From: Bacteroidales bacterium
GTDB taxonomy: Bacteria > Bacteroidota > Bacteroidia > Bacteroidales > M50B96
Direction of reading: 5' to 3'
Length of the DNA stretch: 45,820 nt
NCBI GenBank assembly: GCA_018401015.1
Contig: JAGYLP010000015.1
Coordinates: 1 to 45,820 of the forward strand
The position numbers and the translations under genes were made by a program. Below are positions 6,229 through 24,903 of this stretch, piece by piece (position 1 is the stretch's first letter; each line of letters begins with the position of its first letter). A model generated the notes under the pieces. That model was given only the letters and a program-made list of their open reading frames with translations. It ran no database searches and was not told the DNA's origin.

Positions 6229-7902
6229 ATGATTTCATTTTTTGAATTTGGGTTGTCTCCGGCTATCTTGGAAGCCTTGGAAAAATTAGGCTTTCAACAT
6301 CCTACACCCATTCAGGCTTTAGCCATTCCACAATTACTCGAATCGAACCAGGATTTAATAGCCCTGGCACAAACCGGAACCGGTAAAACAGCTGCTTATG
6401 GTTTGCCCATTATCCATCGAATCGATGCCTCTAAAAAATTACCCCAAGCCATTATTTTAAGCCCCACTCGTGAGCTTTGCGTTCAAATTGCGAAAGATTT
6501 AGAAAGTTATGCAGCTAACATGCCCGACTTTAAAGTAGTAGCAATTTATGGTGGTGCCAGTATGGATAATCAAATAAAAGCCCTTCAGGCAGGAGCACAA
6601 ATAATTGTGGGGACTCCCGGAAGAGTTGGCGATTTATTGAATCGTAAAAGACTCAAGTTACAAGGGATCGAAAGGATTGTCCTCGACGAAGCCGATGAAA
6701 TGCTGAGCATGGGTTTCAAAGACGATTTGGATTTTATTTTAAGTGCCATTCCAACCGAAAAACAAACACTACTTTTCTCGGCTACCATGCCGAAAGAAAT
6801 TCAGACCATTACCAAAAAATACATGAAGGCTCCCATTGAGCTTAGTGTGGGTAAAAAGAATTCAGCTACCGAACAGGTTGAACACCTTTATTATGTAGTG
6901 CATGCTAAGGACCGCTATGAAGTATTAAAACGCATTGCTGATATCAATCCTAAAATTTACGGAATTGTTTTTTGCCGCACTCGAAAAGATACCAAAGAGG
7001 TCGCGAAGAGGCTTATGGGCGATTCCTACAACGCCGATGCGCTCCACGGCGATTTAACTCAGTCGCAGCGCGACGAAGTGATGGATCGATTTCGGAAAGG
7101 TCAGATTCAGTTGTTGGTAGCAACGGATGTGGCTGCTCGCGGACTCGATGTAAATAATCTCACCCACGTGATTAATTACGATTTACCCGACGAAGCAGAG
7201 GTTTATACACATCGAAGTGGACGAACCGGCCGGGCCGGGAAGAAAGGAATTTCGATTGCCATTATTCATAGTCGTGAAACAAGTAAGCTGCGCAGGGTAG
7301 AAAAAGTATCTGGTATTACTTTCGAACGAGTAATGGTTCCCGATGGTAAAGAAATATGCACCAAACAACTGTATTCACTTGTCGATAAAGTCGAAAAAGT
7401 TGTGGTCGACGAAGCTACCATTGCTCCGTTTCTTCCTGCTATCTATCAAAAGCTTGAATGGCTCGACCGGGAACAGCTCATCAAGCATTTCGTGTCGGTC
7501 GAATTCAACCGATTCCTGGCTTATTACAAAGATTCTCGCGACGTAAATATTTACGATACGAAGAAAGAAAGTAAATCGGCGAGTGGTAAAAAAGACATGC
7601 CCATGACCCGCATTCACCTGAATGTTGGGTCGAAACGTAAATTGAACCCTCTCAAACTATTGAGTCTGGTGAATGAAGCACTCGATAATAATCAGGTTCA
7701 GGTGGGCAAAATTGAAGTACTTCGTAATTTTACTTTTTTTGAAATTGAATCCGATTTTGCGGAGGCCATGATTCGCGAAATACCACATTTTGAGATTGAT
7801 GGATTCCCTCTACATGCTCAGGTTGCCGAGCAATCAAAGCCAGGTTCTTATCAGGAGGAGGACTTTTTTAGAAAAAATCGAAATCGTAAAAAGAAATACT
7901 AA
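6229..7902 (+). CDS. deaD: DEAD-box ATP-dependent RNA helicase with DbpA-type RNA-binding tail
   Basis: This is an ATP-driven RNA unwinding protein of the DeaD/CsdA type, acting in cold adaptation, ribosome assembly and RNA turnover in the cytoplasm. Seen in order: Q motif (residues about 4-34, with FFEFGLS and HPTPIQ), Walker A AQTGTGKT (about 47-54), PTREL, GTPGR, DEAD box (153-156), SAT, then the second RecA lobe with VATDVAARGLD and HRSGRTGRAG (about 328). Residues about 480-545 (TRIHLNVGSKRKLNP...) look like a DbpA RNA-binding domain, followed by a basic tail rich in K and R. The length of 557 residues is usual for DeaD-like helicases of the phylum. The next gene starts 15 bases downstream and is probably co-transcribed. 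The exact DeaD versus CsdA/DbpA assignment is by resemblance. Confidence 0.95.
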   Translation: MISFFEFGLSPAILEALEKLGFQHPTPIQALAIPQLLESNQDLIALAQTGTGKTAAYGLPIIHRIDASKKLPQAIILSPTRELCVQIAKDLESYAANMPDFKVVAIYGGASMDNQIKALQAGAQIIVGTPGRVGDLLNRKRLKLQGIERIVLDEADEMLSMGFKDDLDFILSAIPTEKQTLLFSATMPKEIQTITKKYMKAPIELSVGKKNSATEQVEHLYYVVHAKDRYEVLKRIADINPKIYGIVFCRTRKDTKEVAKRLMGDSYNADALHGDLTQSQRDEVMDRFRKGQIQLLVATDVAARGLDVNNLTHVINYDLPDEAEVYTHRSGRTGRAGKKGISIAIIHSRETSKLRRVEKVSGITFERVMVPDGKEICTKQLYSLVDKVEKVVVDEATIAPFLPAIYQKLEWLDREQLIKHFVSVEFNRFLAYYKDSRDVNIYDTKKESKSASGKKDMPMTRIHLNVGSKRKLNPLKLLSLVNEALDNNQVQVGKIEVLRNFTFFEIESDFAEAMIREIPHFEIDGFPLHAQVAEQSKPGSYQEEDFFRKNRNRKKKY

Positions 7903-7917
7903 CCAAATTCTTTTAGC

Positions 7918-8586
7918 ATGAGGGAGATTCCGACACGCTTAAAGAATGTCGATACCATTATTTGGGATTATAATGGAACGCTGCTCAACGATGTGGCGAT
8001 TTGTGTCGATGCCATTAATTCTATGCTCGAAGAACGAGGAATTAAACCGGTTACCATTTCGGAATACCAGGAAGTGTTTGATTTTCCGGTTAAAGATTAT
8101 TACGAAAAAATTGGTTTCGATTTCTCGAAAGAGGATTTTGCAGTTGTGGGAAGGGAATTCATTCATCGTTACGATGCGCTCCGCCCTAACTCACAGCTTC
8201 AACCAGATGTAAGAAAAACCCTTTCTTGCTTTCGGAATCAGGGAGTGCGGCAGTTCGTTTTATCGGCCCGAGAGGAAGAATCCTTGAAACGAGAGATTCG
8301 CGATTTTCAATTGGAATCGTTTTTCGAGGCTATTTATGGCTTAGGCGACCATTATGCACATGGAAAGGTCGATTTAGGGCTCGAACTAATGCAGGATTTT
8401 AAGTTAAATCCGTCCAAAACCGTCATGATTGGAGATACCCTGCACGATGCCGAAGTGGCTCAGGAAATGGGAATTATGCCTATTTTGATTACACACGGCC
8501 ACCATCATGCGAATCGACTTGCCATACTGGATGTACTCCTTATCGATTCACTGGAATCGCTTTGCAAAGAATTCGCCCCAAATTAA
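7918..8586 (+). CDS. HAD-family phosphatase, phosphoglycolate phosphatase-like
   Basis: A haloacid dehalogenase superfamily hydrolase of 222 residues with an alpha-helical cap between motif I and motif II, as in phosphoglycolate phosphatase (Gph). Motif I is DYNGTLLND (residues 17-25): the nucleophile Asp17 is present, but the second Asp of the usual DxDGT is Asn19. Motif II is LSAREE, motif III a lysine in AHGKVDLG, and motif IV GDTLHDAE. The gene follows the helicase by 15 bp on the same strand. The substrate is not evident; 'phosphoglycolate phosphatase' is only the nearest family name. It converges on the antiporter gene across a 140-bp gap that shows no clear feature. Confidence 0.85.
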   Translation: MREIPTRLKNVDTIIWDYNGTLLNDVAICVDAINSMLEERGIKPVTISEYQEVFDFPVKDYYEKIGFDFSKEDFAVVGREFIHRYDALRPNSQLQPDVRKTLSCFRNQGVRQFVLSAREEESLKREIRDFQLESFFEAIYGLGDHYAHGKVDLGLELMQDFKLNPSKTVMIGDTLHDAEVAQEMGIMPILITHGHHHANRLAILDVLLIDSLESLCKEFAPN

Positions 8587-8726
8587 TTGAATGTAACATT
8601 TCTGCCAACATTGTCGGTAATTAGCAAGCAGCTCATTTTCGGTACAAACACTCTTGCTTAAAGCGATATTTAAAATGTGTAAGAAAAACTGTCCGGAGCT
8701 GACTCCATGCGAATTCCTTTCGTAGT

Positions 8727-9791
8727 TTATATAAAAACCAAAAGTACATATAGGATGTAAATCATCAGGTATATAAACCCTTCCCATCGATTCACGATTC
8801 CATTCTGAGCGGATTTCGAACTGAAAAGAAAGGTTTTGAAATTTCCGAGAAACCCAACCAAATCGAACTTTTTAGCTACAGGAACAAGCAAAAAGAGTAA
8901 GAACCCAGAAATGGCGGTCATCCAAATTAAATCGTTAATAATTTTTGGGTCTGCAAGGGGAATAGGAGTAACAAGGGCTGTAACTCCTAAAATGCCCAGA
9001 ATATTGAAGATATTGGAACCGATTAAATTACCTACCGAGATATCCATTTGTTTTTTAATGGCAGCCATGAGGGAGGTAGCTAATTCCGGAAGGGAGGTTC
9101 CTACCGCTACCACGGTTAAGCCAATTATTCTTTCGCTAATCCCTAGCTCTCTAGCTATATTGCTGGCTCCACTCACTAAAAACTCAGCGCCGTATTTTAG
9201 TCCGGCGATGGATACCACCAAAAGAACGATACTGAGCGGCAAGGGTAGGGGGGAATCGCTCTTAAGCATGCTAAGTAAACCTTTTAAAGAGTTCGGACAA
9301 CCCACTACCGCCTCATCCAGAACACTTTCTTTCTGTGCAGAACTTGTTTTACCTCGTTGGATGGACCAAATGATATACACGACCAAAAGGATCACGAAAA
9401 CCAATCCTTCATAGAAGCCAATCCCTCCATTTCGCGCCAGAACAATCCATAGCAAGGCAGAAGCAAACATCATGAAGGTCCAATCGAATCGAATACCACT
9501 TCGAAGAATTGGGATAGGAAGAATGAGTGCGGTTAGTCCAAGAACAAGGGCTAAATTGGCGATATTCGACCCGATTACATTTCCCAGAGAAATATCGCTA
9601 ACTCCCATTAAAGCTGCATCCAAGCTTACAATAAGTTCCGGAGCTGAGGTCCCCATGGAAACAACCGTAGCTCCAATAACTAATGCGGATAATTTGAAAA
9701 AACGGGCTATCCCAACAGCTGCTTTTACTAAATAATTTCCACTAATAGTGAGCAAAATGATACCCGCTATGAGATAAAGGTAATCCATCAT
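8727..9791 (-). CDS. Calcium/sodium antiporter (CaCA family, YrbG-like)
   Basis: An inner-membrane cation exchanger of 354 residues with about ten hydrophobic segments arranged as an inverted duplication. The two alpha-repeat signatures are visible: 'GATVVSMGTSAPELIVS...GNVIGSNIANLALVLG' near residues 40-85, and 'GLTVVAVGTSLPELATS...GNLIGSNIFNILGILG' near 220-270. The paired GTS-PE and GSNI motifs bind the cations in this family. It starts 2 bp after the tatA stop codon on the same strand, so the two are almost certainly co-transcribed. The true ion preference (Ca/Na, K-dependent or H) cannot be read from the sequence. Confidence 0.93.
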   Translation of the reverse strand: MMDYLYLIAGIILLTISGNYLVKAAVGIARFFKLSALVIGATVVSMGTSAPELIVSLDAALMGVSDISLGNVIGSNIANLALVLGLTALILPIPILRSGIRFDWTFMMFASALLWIVLARNGGIGFYEGLVFVILLVVYIIWSIQRGKTSSAQKESVLDEAVVGCPNSLKGLLSMLKSDSPLPLPLSIVLLVVSIAGLKYGAEFLVSGASNIARELGISERIIGLTVVAVGTSLPELATSLMAAIKKQMDISVGNLIGSNIFNILGILGVTALVTPIPLADPKIINDLIWMTAISGFLLFLLVPVAKKFDLVGFLGNFKTFLFSSKSAQNGIVNRWEGFIYLMIYILYVLLVFI

Positions 9792-19700: not shown

Positions 19701-21908
19701 CTACAGAATATGGATAATGCCTTTCCCTTTGCTACGGAATTTTCCAATTATAGCGGTAGATTCTATTCCTGCTTCCAATAATTTCTGGAGTAAGCGATCA
19801 GCTTCATCCTCCTTAATGGCAATAAGCAGTCCGCCCGAAGTTTGCGCATCGGCAAGCAGTGTTAGACTTAATTCATCGATTTGAGGAGAAGGCTGAATCC
19901 AGTCCTGAACGAAAGCTAAATTATCCTTAGTTCCTCCCGGGATTACGTTGGCCGCAATGAACTGTTTTACTTTGGGGAAAACGGGCACTTTGTCGGACCA
20001 TAGCTCAACATCGACTCCAGAACCTCCCGACATTTCTTTCAGGTGTCCGAGTAGGCCAAAACCAGTAACATCGGTGCATGCACTTACCGGAAACGATTCC
20101 ATGATTTCGGCCGGCAGCTTATTCAAGCGCGCCATGCTCTGCTGGAATTCAACGGCATCGACCTCCTGTAAAAGTCCTCTCTTTAGTGCAGTAGCTAAAA
20201 TTCCGGTACCAATGGGTTTGGTTAAAAGGATAACATCATTTGGCTTGGCTGTATTATTTCGTAAGATTTTATCCGGATGAACCCGACCATTGACCACCAT
20301 TCCATACTTCGGTTCGGTATCGTCCACCGTGTGCCCTCCCAGAATGGGAATTCCTGCTTCGGCAGCCTTGTCCTGTGCACCCGTTAAGATTTGTTTCAAT
20401 ACTTCAATGGGTAAACGGTTCGAAGGAAAACCAACAATATTTAACGCAAACATGGGCTTTGCACCCATGGCATAAATGTCGCTAAGTGCATTCGCCGCTG
20501 CAATGGCCCCAAAGAGGTAGGGGTCGTCGGCTATCGGCGTAAAAAAGTCGAGGGTCTGAACAAGAGCCATGTCTTCGCTTATTGCTACCACTGCAGCATC
20601 GTCGGAGCTTTCGGTTCCGACCAGAATAGAAGTATCGGCCAAGGGAGGCAAGTTTTGGAGCACCTCTTCGAGCACTTGTGGTCGCAATTTGCAGGCGCAA
20701 CCCAACCCGTGTGTGAAATGCGTGAGCTTAATCTCTTTCCAATCCAGGTTAATCAAACCAGGATCATTACCCGTTTTCAATTTGCTTAAGCTTTCACTTA
20801 TCTGTGAAACAGCTTCGTCAATTTCCTGAAAGCTGGAGTATTTACCAACCGAAAAGCGCACAGTTCCCATCGCATACTCGGTCGGAATTTTCATGGCTTC
20901 GATTACGGGCGACACATCCACTTGCTCGCTATGGCAAGCTGCTCCGGCCGATGCAGCCACTCCTTGCAATTCGGCCAAGAGAGTATTGGCTTCCACTCCC
21001 GGAAAACTAACATTCAGGGTGTTGGGTAAACGTATTTCCGGATGACCGTTTAGTTTCATCTCCGGATGACGTTCAAGTAGTTCTTGATATAAATAATCGC
21101 GTATGCTTTGTTGTCGGGGCATTTCGGTCTGTATCGACTCCATCGCCAATTGGGCTGCTTCTCCTAATCCAACAATTTCCAGAATATTTTCAGTTCCGGC
21201 ACGTAAGTTTCGCTCGTGATCGGCACCGTGCATGAATTTTTCCAATTGCACACCTGTACGAATGTATAAAGCACCTACACCCTTGGGAGCATATAATTTA
21301 TGTCCGGCAATACTCAGTAAATCGACCTGCATTTTCTGAACATCGACAGGTATTTTTCCGGTCGATTGAGCTGCATCGGAATGAAACAGGATTCCATTTC
21401 TTTTAGCAATAAGTCCAATCTTTTCAATGGGCTGGATGCTGCCAACTTCATTGTTAGCATGCATGATACTGATGAGAATGGTGTCGGGTCGGAGGGCTTT
21501 CTCTACATCATCTGGATTCACCATTCCGTATTCATCAACCGGAAGGTAACTCACCGAAAAACTTTGTTTTTCCAAATAGGAGCACACTTCGGTAACTGCA
21601 GGGTGTTCAACTTGGCTGGTAATGATGTGTTTCCCTTTATGTTGATTCGCAAAAGCAGCTCCTTTGATGGCCATATTATTCGATTCAGTTCCACCGGAAG
21701 TGAAGATAATTTCCCACGGTTCGCAGTGAATCAAACGTGCCAGGTGTTCCCTTGCTTCTTCTACTGCCATTCGGCTGGTTGAACCATAAGCATGTGAACT
21801 GGATGGATTTCCAAAATGCTTATCTAAAAAAGGTTTCATTGCCTCAGCTACTCGCGGATCGATGGGAGTGCTGGCGTTGTAATCGAGGTATATAACTTTT
21901 TTTTCCAT
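19701..21908 (-). CDS. Fusion protein: selenocysteine lyase-like (NifS family) + selenide water dikinase (SelD)
   Basis: A 735-residue two-enzyme fusion. Residues 1 to about 380 are a class V PLP aminotransferase: H-S-D-A-A-Q around 176-181, PLP lysine K204 in SIAGHKLY, and catalytic C325 in SAGAACHSE. That cysteine loop is closer to selenocysteine lyase than to IscS (SGSACTS). Residues from about 393 are SelD: H-x-L-G-C-A-C-K with C404, C406 and K407, then DDAAV, ALSDIYAMG, GGHTVDD and TDVTGFGLLGH. SelD makes selenophosphate from selenide and ATP. A fused lyase could hand selenium directly to SelD. It starts 34 bp after the DUF5916 gene on the same strand. No selA, selB, tRNA-Sec or mnmH (selU) is in the window. 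No internal start or stop suggests two separate genes. Confidence 0.93.
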   Translation of the reverse strand: MEKKVIYLDYNASTPIDPRVAEAMKPFLDKHFGNPSSSHAYGSTSRMAVEEAREHLARLIHCEPWEIIFTSGGTESNNMAIKGAAFANQHKGKHIITSQVEHPAVTEVCSYLEKQSFSVSYLPVDEYGMVNPDDVEKALRPDTILISIMHANNEVGSIQPIEKIGLIAKRNGILFHSDAAQSTGKIPVDVQKMQVDLLSIAGHKLYAPKGVGALYIRTGVQLEKFMHGADHERNLRAGTENILEIVGLGEAAQLAMESIQTEMPRQQSIRDYLYQELLERHPEMKLNGHPEIRLPNTLNVSFPGVEANTLLAELQGVAASAGAACHSEQVDVSPVIEAMKIPTEYAMGTVRFSVGKYSSFQEIDEAVSQISESLSKLKTGNDPGLINLDWKEIKLTHFTHGLGCACKLRPQVLEEVLQNLPPLADTSILVGTESSDDAAVVAISEDMALVQTLDFFTPIADDPYLFGAIAAANALSDIYAMGAKPMFALNIVGFPSNRLPIEVLKQILTGAQDKAAEAGIPILGGHTVDDTEPKYGMVVNGRVHPDKILRNNTAKPNDVILLTKPIGTGILATALKRGLLQEVDAVEFQQSMARLNKLPAEIMESFPVSACTDVTGFGLLGHLKEMSGGSGVDVELWSDKVPVFPKVKQFIAANVIPGGTKDNLAFVQDWIQPSPQIDELSLTLLADAQTSGGLLIAIKEDEADRLLQKLLEAGIESTAIIGKFRSKGKGIIHIL

Positions 21909-21942: not shown

Positions 21943-24363
21943 TTACAATTGAAAAAATTGATAATCGACATAGTAAATGAGTTTAAACGATAAAGAATTG
22001 CTCTGGTCGGCCATGACGGTGTTCCTCAAGTTTGTCCAGTAGCCGGTGTTTACGGTGGGATGCGATTCGGGTAAAATGAAGTTTTTCCAGACCAAGTTAA
22101 GAAAACTTCCGGGAGCGAAATTCCATGAAAATACCCAATCGATGCTAAAGACGTTGTAATTAATATCCTGATTCTGCGTATCAAATGTTTCACTTTCGAA
22201 GGCCTCAATATCACCGTTGGGTTGCAACTCCTGAAAACTCCGGTAATCGACCAGATTATTCAAATGGCGAAAATCGATACGTATCGCAGCTTCGTTGTTA
22301 AACACATAGGAGGCACCCAGACTATTCGTAAGAGAAGAATTATTTCGAATTCCTAGGATGATTTCCTGCTCGGAGAAATGGGTTACATAACCGACTTCGC
22401 CAAAAGACCGGTTCCAATGCATCCGAGGGACAAGAAAAAGATGGTTGTTCACCCGGATTCGAGGAGAGAAACTCAGGTAATAATTGGTCGTAAAGCGAAT
22501 ATCGTCGGTGAATCCCATTTGTATGTCGATTGCCAAGGCTTTGCGATAATCGGAACTAATCCAACCGGTAAGTCGATATCGTTCCGGGTGACGGTAATAA
22601 CGATTGGCAACTCGAGGTTCAAAATAATCGTGGTAACCCAGGGGCCATAGGGAATGATTCCAGCCAAGCGATAAATAATTTTTAAAGGTAAGAACCCCCG
22701 ATTGATAAAATTCAAGCAAGGAATACTTACCCGTTGAAAAAACTTGCTGATAGCTGCCTCCTGCACTGGTATTGATACTCAATAGGTAACGTCCGGGGGT
22801 ATATTTGCGATAGTTGCCTTCCAATCCCTGCAGTATCATGTTGTTATAAGCCAGATAGGCCATGTCGTTCGGGTCGTAACGATCCGATAGAATATCCCAG
22901 TAGTAATGATAATTGTATCGTCCGTTGAATTTCCCGATTCTTCCATTCAGGTAATAACCTTTCGATGCCCTCTCAATGGCTTGTCCAGTTTTGTAGCTCA
23001 AGGCCGATTGAAACTCAATTCCCATTCGATTCGATGCGTCCATAAGCCTCAAGCCCAATCCGGTAACATTCGCAATACTATCAATTTCCGGGCGATAAAC
23101 ATTGGTGTTAATAAGGTTGATATAGGAATTGTTCCTCATGGCTTGATCCATTACCAGTATATTGAAATTCGTGAAAGGATCGGTGAGGATTTTTCGAGTT
23201 TCGTCTTGCGAGTTCCTAACAGTGGCATAGCTACGGTCCGTCATTGCATTGAAAACCCCTAGACCAAGCCCATTCGACATTCTACCGGAGAATTTGGTAG
23301 CATTCAAAAGCTTTCCTTCCGACGGATTTAGTTCAACCGTTTCCCCTTCTTCGAGGAGATTATTGACTTTTCCGGCATACATCGGACGTTTCCCTATCCT
23401 GCGACTGTAAAACAAGCCTTGCTTGTTGAATAATTCAGTTCCCTCGTTGAAGAAGGCTCGATTCTCATTGTAATAAATTTCATAAGGACTTAAGTTCAGG
23501 ACTATTTGGTCGGTAATCGTTTGACCAAAATCGGGAATAAGGGTCATATCGAGGGTGAAACTTTCGTTTACACCGTACTTAACATCCATCCCGCCAGCCA
23601 AGGTTTCATCCATTTTGGAATGTTGAGGGGTTTTTTGCAAGTAGCCCGATAGGTAAGGGAAAAACGCCAAGCGAAGAGGGTGCTTAATGTTGCTGATCCC
23701 CCGGAGAATACCTGCCTGCACGGTAACCTCTCCTGTTTCTTTATTGATTGGATTCCAGGAAGAAAATTCCCGCGTTCGCCTCACCAAGCGCCTGAAGTTG
23801 ATCCCCCATGCTTGATTAACTTGTTGGGGAATGCGCAAGGCAGAATAGGGTATAAGGATTTCGACTGTCCATCCCAGCGAATCAATTGAAGTTTCGCTCA
23901 GCCATACAGCATTCCAACTCTCGTCTTCGCTATTGCCCGATAATCGCACATCGCTTTGAACATTTGCGGCCGTAACATAGAAAAGAAAGGCGTTTTGATG
24001 ATCGTTGTAGGCATTTATTTCGACCATGAAGGCATCGGCATTCCCATTTCGGTTGTTCCGTATGGTGAGCTCCTTCAAGATTGAATCAGGAGCATGATCG
24101 TACAATCGCGCTCCTACATAAAATGCTCTGTCGGTATATAAAGTCCTCACCTCGGAACGAAATTCAGACCGTACTCCAATTTCCGGGTCGTATATGTAGA
24201 AGCTATCCGCAATGGCAGCCTCCTTCCATGCAGCTTCGTCGAGCTTACCATCTACTTTAATTTTATCAGAAGAATACTGTGTGGTTAGTTCACGCGGAAA
24301 ATCTCCGGCATGCATTCCAGACACAAATAATCCCAAGAGCAGTAAGCAGCCTTTTAGCAGCAT
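21943..24363 (-). CDS. DUF5916 outer-membrane beta-barrel protein with CBM9-like domain
   Basis: A 806-residue protein with a signal peptide (MLLKGCLLLLGLFVSGMHAGD), a carbohydrate-binding family 9-like N-terminal domain (about residues 28-215: 'IKVDGKLDEAAWKEA', 'YTDRAFYVGARLYD', 'WTVEILIPYSALRI') and a long C-terminal region of alternating beta-strands that probably forms an outer-membrane barrel. 'DFGQTITDQIVLNLSPYEIYYNENRAFFNEG' is the signature of the DUF5916 family. The family's molecular function is unknown to me; it is widespread in Bacteroidota. It is upstream of the SelD fusion with a 34-bp gap, so it may share its transcript. The 162-bp divergent region to the globin gene holds the promoters of both. 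Confidence 0.88.
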   Translation of the reverse strand: MLLKGCLLLLGLFVSGMHAGDFPRELTTQYSSDKIKVDGKLDEAAWKEAAIADSFYIYDPEIGVRSEFRSEVRTLYTDRAFYVGARLYDHAPDSILKELTIRNNRNGNADAFMVEINAYNDHQNAFLFYVTAANVQSDVRLSGNSEDESWNAVWLSETSIDSLGWTVEILIPYSALRIPQQVNQAWGINFRRLVRRTREFSSWNPINKETGEVTVQAGILRGISNIKHPLRLAFFPYLSGYLQKTPQHSKMDETLAGGMDVKYGVNESFTLDMTLIPDFGQTITDQIVLNLSPYEIYYNENRAFFNEGTELFNKQGLFYSRRIGKRPMYAGKVNNLLEEGETVELNPSEGKLLNATKFSGRMSNGLGLGVFNAMTDRSYATVRNSQDETRKILTDPFTNFNILVMDQAMRNNSYINLINTNVYRPEIDSIANVTGLGLRLMDASNRMGIEFQSALSYKTGQAIERASKGYYLNGRIGKFNGRYNYHYYWDILSDRYDPNDMAYLAYNNMILQGLEGNYRKYTPGRYLLSINTSAGGSYQQVFSTGKYSLLEFYQSGVLTFKNYLSLGWNHSLWPLGYHDYFEPRVANRYYRHPERYRLTGWISSDYRKALAIDIQMGFTDDIRFTTNYYLSFSPRIRVNNHLFLVPRMHWNRSFGEVGYVTHFSEQEIILGIRNNSSLTNSLGASYVFNNEAAIRIDFRHLNNLVDYRSFQELQPNGDIEAFESETFDTQNQDINYNVFSIDWVFSWNFAPGSFLNLVWKNFILPESHPTVNTGYWTNLRNTVMADQSNSLSFKLIYYVDYQFFQL

Positions 24364-24525: not shown

Positions 24526-24903
24526 ATGAACGATAGAACTACCTATTTCGACCGAATCGGCGAAGAAAATCTGCGGAAACTAATCCATGATTTCTACGAA
24601 AATATTGCATCCGATCCGGTTATGCGCCCCATGTATCCTATGAATCTTGCGCCGGCAGAAGAACGCTTATACTTATTCATGCAACAATATTTAGGAGGAC
24701 CGCAAACCTATAACGAACTACGGGGACATCCTCGTTTGCGGCAGCGGCATTTCCCATTTTCCGTCGATTTAAATGCTCGCACCCATTGGATGGATTGTAT
24801 GATGCGTGCCATGCGAAAAAATCCGATGGATGATGAATCGAAGGCTTTCCTGGAATCGTATTTCGAGGATACGGCTACATTTTTACTCAATCGCCCAAAT
24901 TAA
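24526..24903 (+). CDS. Truncated haemoglobin, group II (GlbO type)
   Basis: A 125-residue 2-on-2 globin. Seen: Tyr24 at the B10 position (FYENIASDP), the 'YLGGPQTYNELRGHPRLRQRHFPF' block of group II globins with the proximal heme ligand His75, and Trp88 (G8) in THWMDCM. The family binds O2, NO or peroxide, and roles in NO or redox defence have been proposed. It ends 3 bp before rsmE and is co-transcribed with it. A -7-like TAAATTTG box lies upstream. Confidence 0.95.
   Translation: MNDRTTYFDRIGEENLRKLIHDFYENIASDPVMRPMYPMNLAPAEERLYLFMQQYLGGPQTYNELRGHPRLRQRHFPFSVDLNARTHWMDCMMRAMRKNPMDDESKAFLESYFEDTATFLLNRPN

Follow-up and report, generated by a model that had tools for sequence, protein, structure and literature searches.

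The protein described here, encoded on the reverse strand of a 45,820-nucleotide stretch of a Bacteroidales genome (the window), joins a NifS/IscS-type PLP desulfurase, possibly a selenocysteine (Sec) lyase, to a selenophosphate synthetase (SelD) in one chain. We read it, with a probability of about 0.78, as a bifunctional selenium-salvage enzyme in which selenium derived from Sec would pass via C325 of the first domain to C404 of the second, yielding selenophosphate for both Sec and selenouridine; the substrate, the hand-over and the arrangement of the dimer are the parts that we infer. The fusion is much more widespread than the published record has it, which turns a rarity into a common form in uncultured bacteria.

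The features of the gene are listed in Table 1. Pfam places Aminotran_5 (275.2 bits) at the N-terminal end and AIRS (436–543) and AIRS_C (555–731) at the other, and the NCBIfam selD model exceeds its cut-off of 125 at residues 394–702. The protein shares with the published NifS-SelD fusions a NifS-like domain and SelD in one frame. The lyase–SelD fusion in one polypeptide that the earlier note had claimed is thus borne out by the domain assignments at both ends, as are the catalytic residues that it had named: K204, C325, C404, C406 and K407 stand at the positions it gave, and none of them varies among the 31 aligned fused proteins. K204 is presumably the Schiff-base lysine, a role taken from its family, and K407 is what we take to be the equivalent of E. 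coli K20. C404 occupies the Cys/Sec position of SelD. Based on the model score and the conserved Cys and Lys residues, the second domain fits the SelD family, and selenophosphate synthesis is its predicted activity. A DUF5916/CBM9-like gene on the same strand (21943–24363) ends about 35 bases upstream of the start of the fusion and is also found upstream of it in a genome of the same genus (G003, L055), so the two may be co-transcribed, though functionally unrelated. Further along the window, a truncated-globin gene (Bac_globin, 93 bits; 24526–24903, forward strand) directly precedes an RNA methyltransferase gene (Methyltrans_RNA).

Table 1. The fused gene and its functional parts, in window coordinates.
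Feature	Position	Strand	Basis or remark
Fused gene, NifS/IscS-type PLP desulfurase (possible Sec lyase) + SelD	19701..21908	−	single unbroken frame, 735 aa, start codon ATG
N-terminal desulfurase domain, residues 1–378	20775..21908	−	Aminotran_5 at 6–364; structural match
K204, presumed PLP Schiff-base lysine, AGHK motif	21297..21299	−	invariant in 31/31 and 78/78
C325, putative catalytic Cys, GAACHSE loop; followed by H326, the counterpart of human SCLY H389	20934..20936	−	invariant in 31/31 and 78/78 (for the 78, the loop itself is one of two search patterns)
Linker, residues 379–393	20730..20774	−	variable in length and sequence (alignment); pLDDT <50 at 380–387
SelD domain, residues 394–735	19704..20729	−	TIGR00476, 388.7 bits; Z 47.2 to Aquifex SelD (2yye)
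SelD active-site motif C404-A-C406-K407	20688..20699	−	C404, C406 and K407 invariant in 31/31

The fusion was found as one frame over both domains in 38 of the 198 genomes sampled from the order, and in all four genomes examined of the same family. For 35 of the 38 it is a single match of at least 638 residues; two matches are shorter (6–571 in G051 and 4–515 in G008, the latter at a contig end), and in G071 two matches lie within a single 763-aa frame. The 31 aligned proteins, which are that of the window and 30 relatives found without a pattern, consist of the 30 of these 38 frames that were fetched and that of G003. A junction query of 181 residues, taken from alignment A1, was then compared with one genome per species for 84,980 species and gave at least 542 confirmed stretches. 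The best 80 by score, which are not a random draw, were kept, and all 80 cover query positions 1–181 and have a single frame over the junction; the search patterns used (G[LM]GC[AG]CK[LI]R and AASAGAACH) favour Cys404 and His326, and the set overlaps with the order sample, at least 10 of the 80 being on contigs equal in length to contigs of that sample. According to record titles, 33 of the best 80 are Bacteroidota, while the other 47 are distributed over about 15 further groups: Zixibacteria, Calditrichota, KSB1, Latescibacterota, Cloacimonadota, deltaproteobacterial groups, Ignavibacteria, Eisenbacteria, Anaerolineae, Acidobacteriota, Methylomirabilota, Armatimonadota, Neomarinimicrobiota, Caldisericaceae and others (four of the 47 are titled "bacterium" alone, and bins may be misassigned). 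The earlier note had named a universal and already described fusion as one outcome that would refute its observation; the fusion is indeed described and widespread, and it is not universal.

The N-terminal domain has the features of a group I cysteine desulfurase (IscS/NifS), namely those of a PLP enzyme of fold type I with the lysine of the GHK motif and a loop cysteine. Among NCBIfam models, it stays under the cut-off for NifS (TIGR03402, 487.1 bits against 530.75), for the IscS equivalogs and for SclA (NF040779, 132.1 against 525), and exceeds that of the broad IscS-subfamily model (NF002806, 313 against 304). The earlier note had placed it closer to SCLY than to IscS, which holds weakly for the Cys loop and not for the domain as a whole. 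A 41-residue loop query matched SCLY alone at E ≤0.001 (22 bits), and H326 corresponds to H389 of the human enzyme (hSCL). Over the whole domain, phmmer gives 362 bits for E. coli IscS and 236 for rat SCLY, and the structural Z scores from VIA, among whose matches SelD structures also appear, are about 51–53 for IscS/NFS1 (53.2 for NFS1, otherwise 51.4–51.6) against 48–49 for SCLY (49.0 in the direct comparison). The first 50 Foldseek matches listed are desulfurases and Sec lyases only. A phylogeny of the domain, which the earlier note had proposed, grouped SCLY with the fused domains in the best tree (support 89/56), and AU tests do not reject the alternatives (p = 0.278 and 0.452); these analyses used a random 22 fused rows, with four long stand-alone rows dropped.

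Active-site residues were compared in the 31 aligned proteins and in 78 of the 80 junction loci, those with a long enough N-terminal domain. The candidate residues for Sec specificity in hSCL are reported to be D146, V256 and H389, with cysteine activity gained only in variants carrying D146K and Asp146 described as both necessary and sufficient for the specificity (PMC3266270). The position of D146 is P103 here, a proline in 31/31 and 78/78 fused domains, and the domain in this respect does not qualify as an SCLY; the hSCL rule therefore does not predict Sec specificity for the fusion. The position of H389 is H326, likewise a histidine in all 31 of the pattern-free set and in all 78. That of V256, which is Ser or Thr in non-specific enzymes, is A201: alanine in 30/31 and 77/78 and valine in the rest, thus hydrophobic and mostly not valine. 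The three positions are K, S and T in E. coli IscS. The resulting signature (P103, A201 or Val, C325-H326) occurs in every one of the 31 and of the 78 fused domains and is absent from IscS; it is shared by 6 of the 26 stand-alone domains aligned (five from the order and a Microvirga plasmid gene), the other 20 being without it. Judged by its residues, the fused active site is of a distinct type that resembles SCLY at the loop and not at the decisive position.

It is possible, at odds that we put short of even, that the domain is an ordinary NifS/IscS-type cysteine desulfurase whose C325 is loaded with sulfur or selenium indiscriminately, the fusion being a convenience of co-expression and SelD using free selenide. 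The best PDB and family matches (IscS, NifS, NFS1) and the proline in place of D146 speak for this account, as do the relatives in which the two halves are separate genes or frames (G069, G138, G168 and G171). Moreover, E. coli NifS-like proteins are reported to supply selenium to SelD in vitro (Lacourciere 2000, cited in PMC4561486 and PMC7595633). Against it stand the signature, common to all fused domains compared and missing from IscS, and the fact that the genome already has SufS.

The architecture is most naturally read as a salvage enzyme that couples selenium release to selenophosphate synthesis, and the same proposal has been printed for the fusion of Spironucleus salmonicida (PMC3916229). 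The chemistry of each half would follow from its family. Sec, and perhaps cysteine too, would bind to PLP at K204, and selenium, for which L-selenocysteine is the likeliest source, would be transferred to C325, forming a perselenide on a mobile loop; sulfur from cysteine may be taken up in the same way. The loop would pass the selenium on to C404 of the SelD domain, in its own chain or in the partner chain of a dimer, and with ATP the SelD domain would make selenophosphate for SelA and MnmH. The hand-over from C325 to C404 is suggested by a trypanosome SCLY-SEPHS2 complex that is reported to hide the PLP site (PMC7595633), and delivery by a loop from hSCL to selenophosphate synthetase (SPS) has also been proposed (PMC3266270). 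In the AlphaFold2 model, built on 28 sequences (mean pLDDT 86.2, pTM 0.59), each domain matches its family, while the catalytic loops (324–329, 402–404 and 406–408) and linker residues 380–387 have pLDDT <50. The earlier note had suggested such a model as a check on whether C325 faces the C404 loop; it confirms the two folds and gives no confident domain arrangement, so that channelling is left without structural support from this side. A pair of mobile Cys loops would be well suited to such a transfer, which the model itself cannot show.

The genome that hosts the fusion (99.05% complete) has uses for selenophosphate on both routes. It encodes SelA (499.5 bits), SelB (322.1 bits, cut-off 242.25), MnmH (333.8 bits) and a tRNA-Sec (56.2 bits, anticodon TCA) directly 5' of selA. 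The SelD model has three matches, among which only the fusion is above the cut-off of 125 (the others score 56 and 28), and a Sec-type SelD above cut-off was not found in this search. With tRNA-Sec, selA, selB and mnmH present and no second SelD above cut-off, the fusion should supply both selenocysteine and 2-selenouridine in this organism, which settles the end use that the earlier note had left between the two. The only other desulfurase-like match is SufS (563.8 bits, cut-off 475.1), a separate enzyme that can serve Fe-S assembly. In agreement with the earlier note, which saw no further selenium gene in the window, none was found among the ten neighbouring proteins scanned. A search for selenoproteins in the genome found none; one molybdopterin oxidoreductase (PF00384) was tested and has no in-frame UGA at a Sec-like site.

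Within the order, the fusion is associated with mnmH. MnmH is above cut-off in 34 of the 38 genomes with the fusion and in 44 of the 160 without it (Fisher p ~1.5e-12, with relatedness ignored), and in 17 of the 38 no more than about 520 bp separate mnmH from the fusion. It adjoins the fusion in 14 of the best 80 junction loci, all titled Bacteroidota. Clustering of the neighbours of these 80 loci recovered mnmH in 13, with no other family in more than six. This is in line with the report that selD and ybbB (mnmH) often share an operon (PMC2432076). SelA is above cut-off in 10 of the 38 fusion genomes, and five of these 10 (G000, G048, G112, G116 and G178) also have mnmH and no second SelD above cut-off, so that the host genome is not alone in having the fusion as its single SelD. 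A second, stand-alone SelD above cut-off is present in 10 of the 38 (a fragment in G051 is excluded from this count); that of G173 is of the Cys type (GGCSAK) and has selA and selB as neighbours, YedF standing between selB and selD. MnmH and SelA are both below cut-off in four of the 38 (G136, G101, G130 and G051). G130 and G051 carry mnmH fragments, while the model searches gave no credible mnmH match in G136 or G101. The fusions of these last two genomes (G136:C4, L063 and L111; G101, where the gene is at a contig end), with no credible mnmH or selA match in either genome, are possibly orphan fused SelDs without known use. The neighbours of the G136 fusion, a gyrase-B-like protein, a BNR-repeat secreted protein, Tex and an outer-membrane protein, include nothing selenium-like.

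Outside the order, the fusion accompanies the Sec pathway, often together with a stand-alone SelD of the Sec type, while within the order it mostly goes with mnmH. In the 47 fusion genomes among the best 80 that are not titled Bacteroidota, SelA is above cut-off in 41 and MnmH in only 3, and 30 have a stand-alone SelD above cut-off with one in-frame TGA (one further SelD of this type is a fragment below cut-off). Of 31 such loci fetched, 25 were read by the script and six were not, and in 25/25 readable loci the TGA falls at the C404 position, one of them offset by one in the ungapped count. Two contigs of a genome titled candidate division KSB1 (G239, C27 and C53; L181 and L163) carry two stand-alone TGA-type SelDs besides the fusion. 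Photobacterium profundum is an earlier example of the two SelD types together, with a Sec-type one by selAB and a Cys-type one by ybbB (PMC1273633).

The coincidence of the two SelD types in these genomes could mean that the fused, Cys-type SelD starts Sec synthesis so that the UGA-encoded one can be made, and no stop was found in any fused frame, a result towards which the search patterns and the requirement of one frame are biased. We nevertheless consider such a priming role improbable, in view of a control in which 118 genomes were sampled from the phylum of G199 (titled Zixiibacteriota): 105 of them have SelD and 18 a fusion-length frame (seven are known fusions, the rest being judged by frame length). 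Among the 87 SelD genomes without such a frame, 86 have a SelD with an in-frame TGA (scored for presence, not for position) and apparently manage without the fusion. TGA-type SelD is thus the default of this phylum, to which the fusion is an addition, and the co-occurrence reflects that default and is no argument for priming. The 18 carriers comprise 13 that keep the TGA-type SelD, one with a fragment lacking the N-terminus and four with the fusion only. The host genome, which has no Sec-type SelD above cut-off, also speaks against priming.

The trees of the two halves are compatible with one origin of the fusion followed by losses and transfers. In the SelD-domain tree (midpoint root; a random 35 of 108 fused rows), 33 of the 35 fused rows fall together (SH-aLRT 83) and the other two group with a split relative; a separate group (100) comprises 18 stand-alone Sec-type and five stand-alone Cys-type SelDs of the order. 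In the N-domain tree, a random 30 of 109 fused rows and five unfused relatives make up one group (92) in which the organism groups are mixed. Loss of a domain is seen directly among relatives: mnmH is followed by the desulfurase alone in G069 (L070) and by SelD alone in G121 (L068). In G138 (L067) the desulfurase and SelD halves are in different, overlapping frames (6672–7904 and 7724–8959). This frameshift-like case is the one sign pointing towards a sequencing or assembly error that joined two genes, an explanation of negligible probability that is refuted by the conservation of one frame across genomes, the 80/80 junction loci and 38/198 genomes of the order, with a conserved SelD start beyond the variable linker, which rules out both a chance read-through and a false join in the assembly. 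Close unfused relatives of the N-terminal domain (about 55% identity) include plasmid-borne desulfurases of Methylocystis rosea (L214, 2644–4125) and Microvirga (L213), the former after a DsrE gene and before a methyltransferase gene. The loop is Cys-His in Microvirga and Cys-Arg in Methylocystis, and the surroundings of these genes are possibly a selenium or sulfur island.

A stronger version of the salvage reading would hold that the fusions are one widely shared, horizontally moving family which prefers Sec by means of Pro103 and His326 in place of Asp146 and His389, transfers selenium directly from C325 to C404, and is the sole source of selenophosphate for Sec and selenouridine in some organisms, including the host. 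Taken as a whole, we regard this version as doubtful.

Both the architecture and the functional idea are already known, from very few species. A paper of 2008 gives Geobacter sp. FRC-32 as the sole carrier of a NifS-SelD fusion, the SelD there having a CxxU site (PMC2398784). The 2014 description of such a protein in the protist Spironucleus salmonicida names Caldithrix abyssi as the one bacterial case of which its authors knew; they proposed that the NifS part acts as a selenocysteine lyase and thereby makes Sec available for selenophosphate synthesis (PMC3916229). A survey of 2015 counts two bacterial instances as well as Acanthamoeba and Naegleria, and its wording makes the second bacterial instance Cys-type, so that the present protein is of that kind (PMC4561486). 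Our literature search, which had most subscription papers outside its reach, found no later survey of the fusion. The words "fusion" and "NifS" are absent from a 2016 survey (PMC5029168); in the parts considered, a 2022 review treats SelD fusions in general terms only (PMC9312934), and a 2024 review mentions NifS-like proteins and not this fusion (PMC11431864). The 2022 review also states that the specific Sec lyase has been detected mostly in animals and is lacking from bacteria and archaea (PMC9312934), against which a Sec-preferring activity here, if true, would be notable; NCBIfam nevertheless names a bacterial SclA model. What is new is the wide spread of the fusion and a case in which no other SelD was found that could serve Sec and selenouridine. 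As a natural covalent desulfurase-SelD unit, it makes the long-discussed direct hand-over of selenium testable with one gene and its split halves.

Compared with the known systems, the fusion of Spironucleus and Caldithrix is like the window protein in having both enzymes in one chain, with a proposed Sec lyase feeding selenophosphate synthesis and a part in selenoprotein salvage; it differs in being known from a protist protein and one bacterium, with no link to mnmH mentioned in the passages considered (PMC3916229). Calditrichota, the group to compare with Caldithrix abyssi, are among the junction loci found here. Compared by description, the Spironucleus text has NifS C-terminal of the selenophosphate synthetase, while the 2015 survey has such extensions at the N-terminus (PMC3916229, PMC4561486). 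In the Geobacter sp. FRC-32 protein, as here, the NifS domain precedes SelD within a single chain, and the CxxU site carries Sec where the window protein has C404-A-C406-K407 (PMC2398784, PMC4561486). The Ndh-SelD fusion also combines an N-terminal enzyme domain with a Cys-type SelD, the extension being NADH dehydrogenase-like and the SelD site CxxC (PMC2398784). On plasmids of Enterococcus faecalis and Sulfitobacter, a desulfurase or sclA gene and selD stand side by side and combine the same two functions, but as separate genes. Mammalian SCLY (PDB 3a9x, 3gzc), finally, shares the fold, the Cys-His of the loop and the proposed delivery to selenophosphate synthetase (PMC3266270), and differs in being a separate protein, in having D146 and V256 where the fused domain has P103 and A201, and in its lower match to the domain (236 bits, against 362 for IscS).
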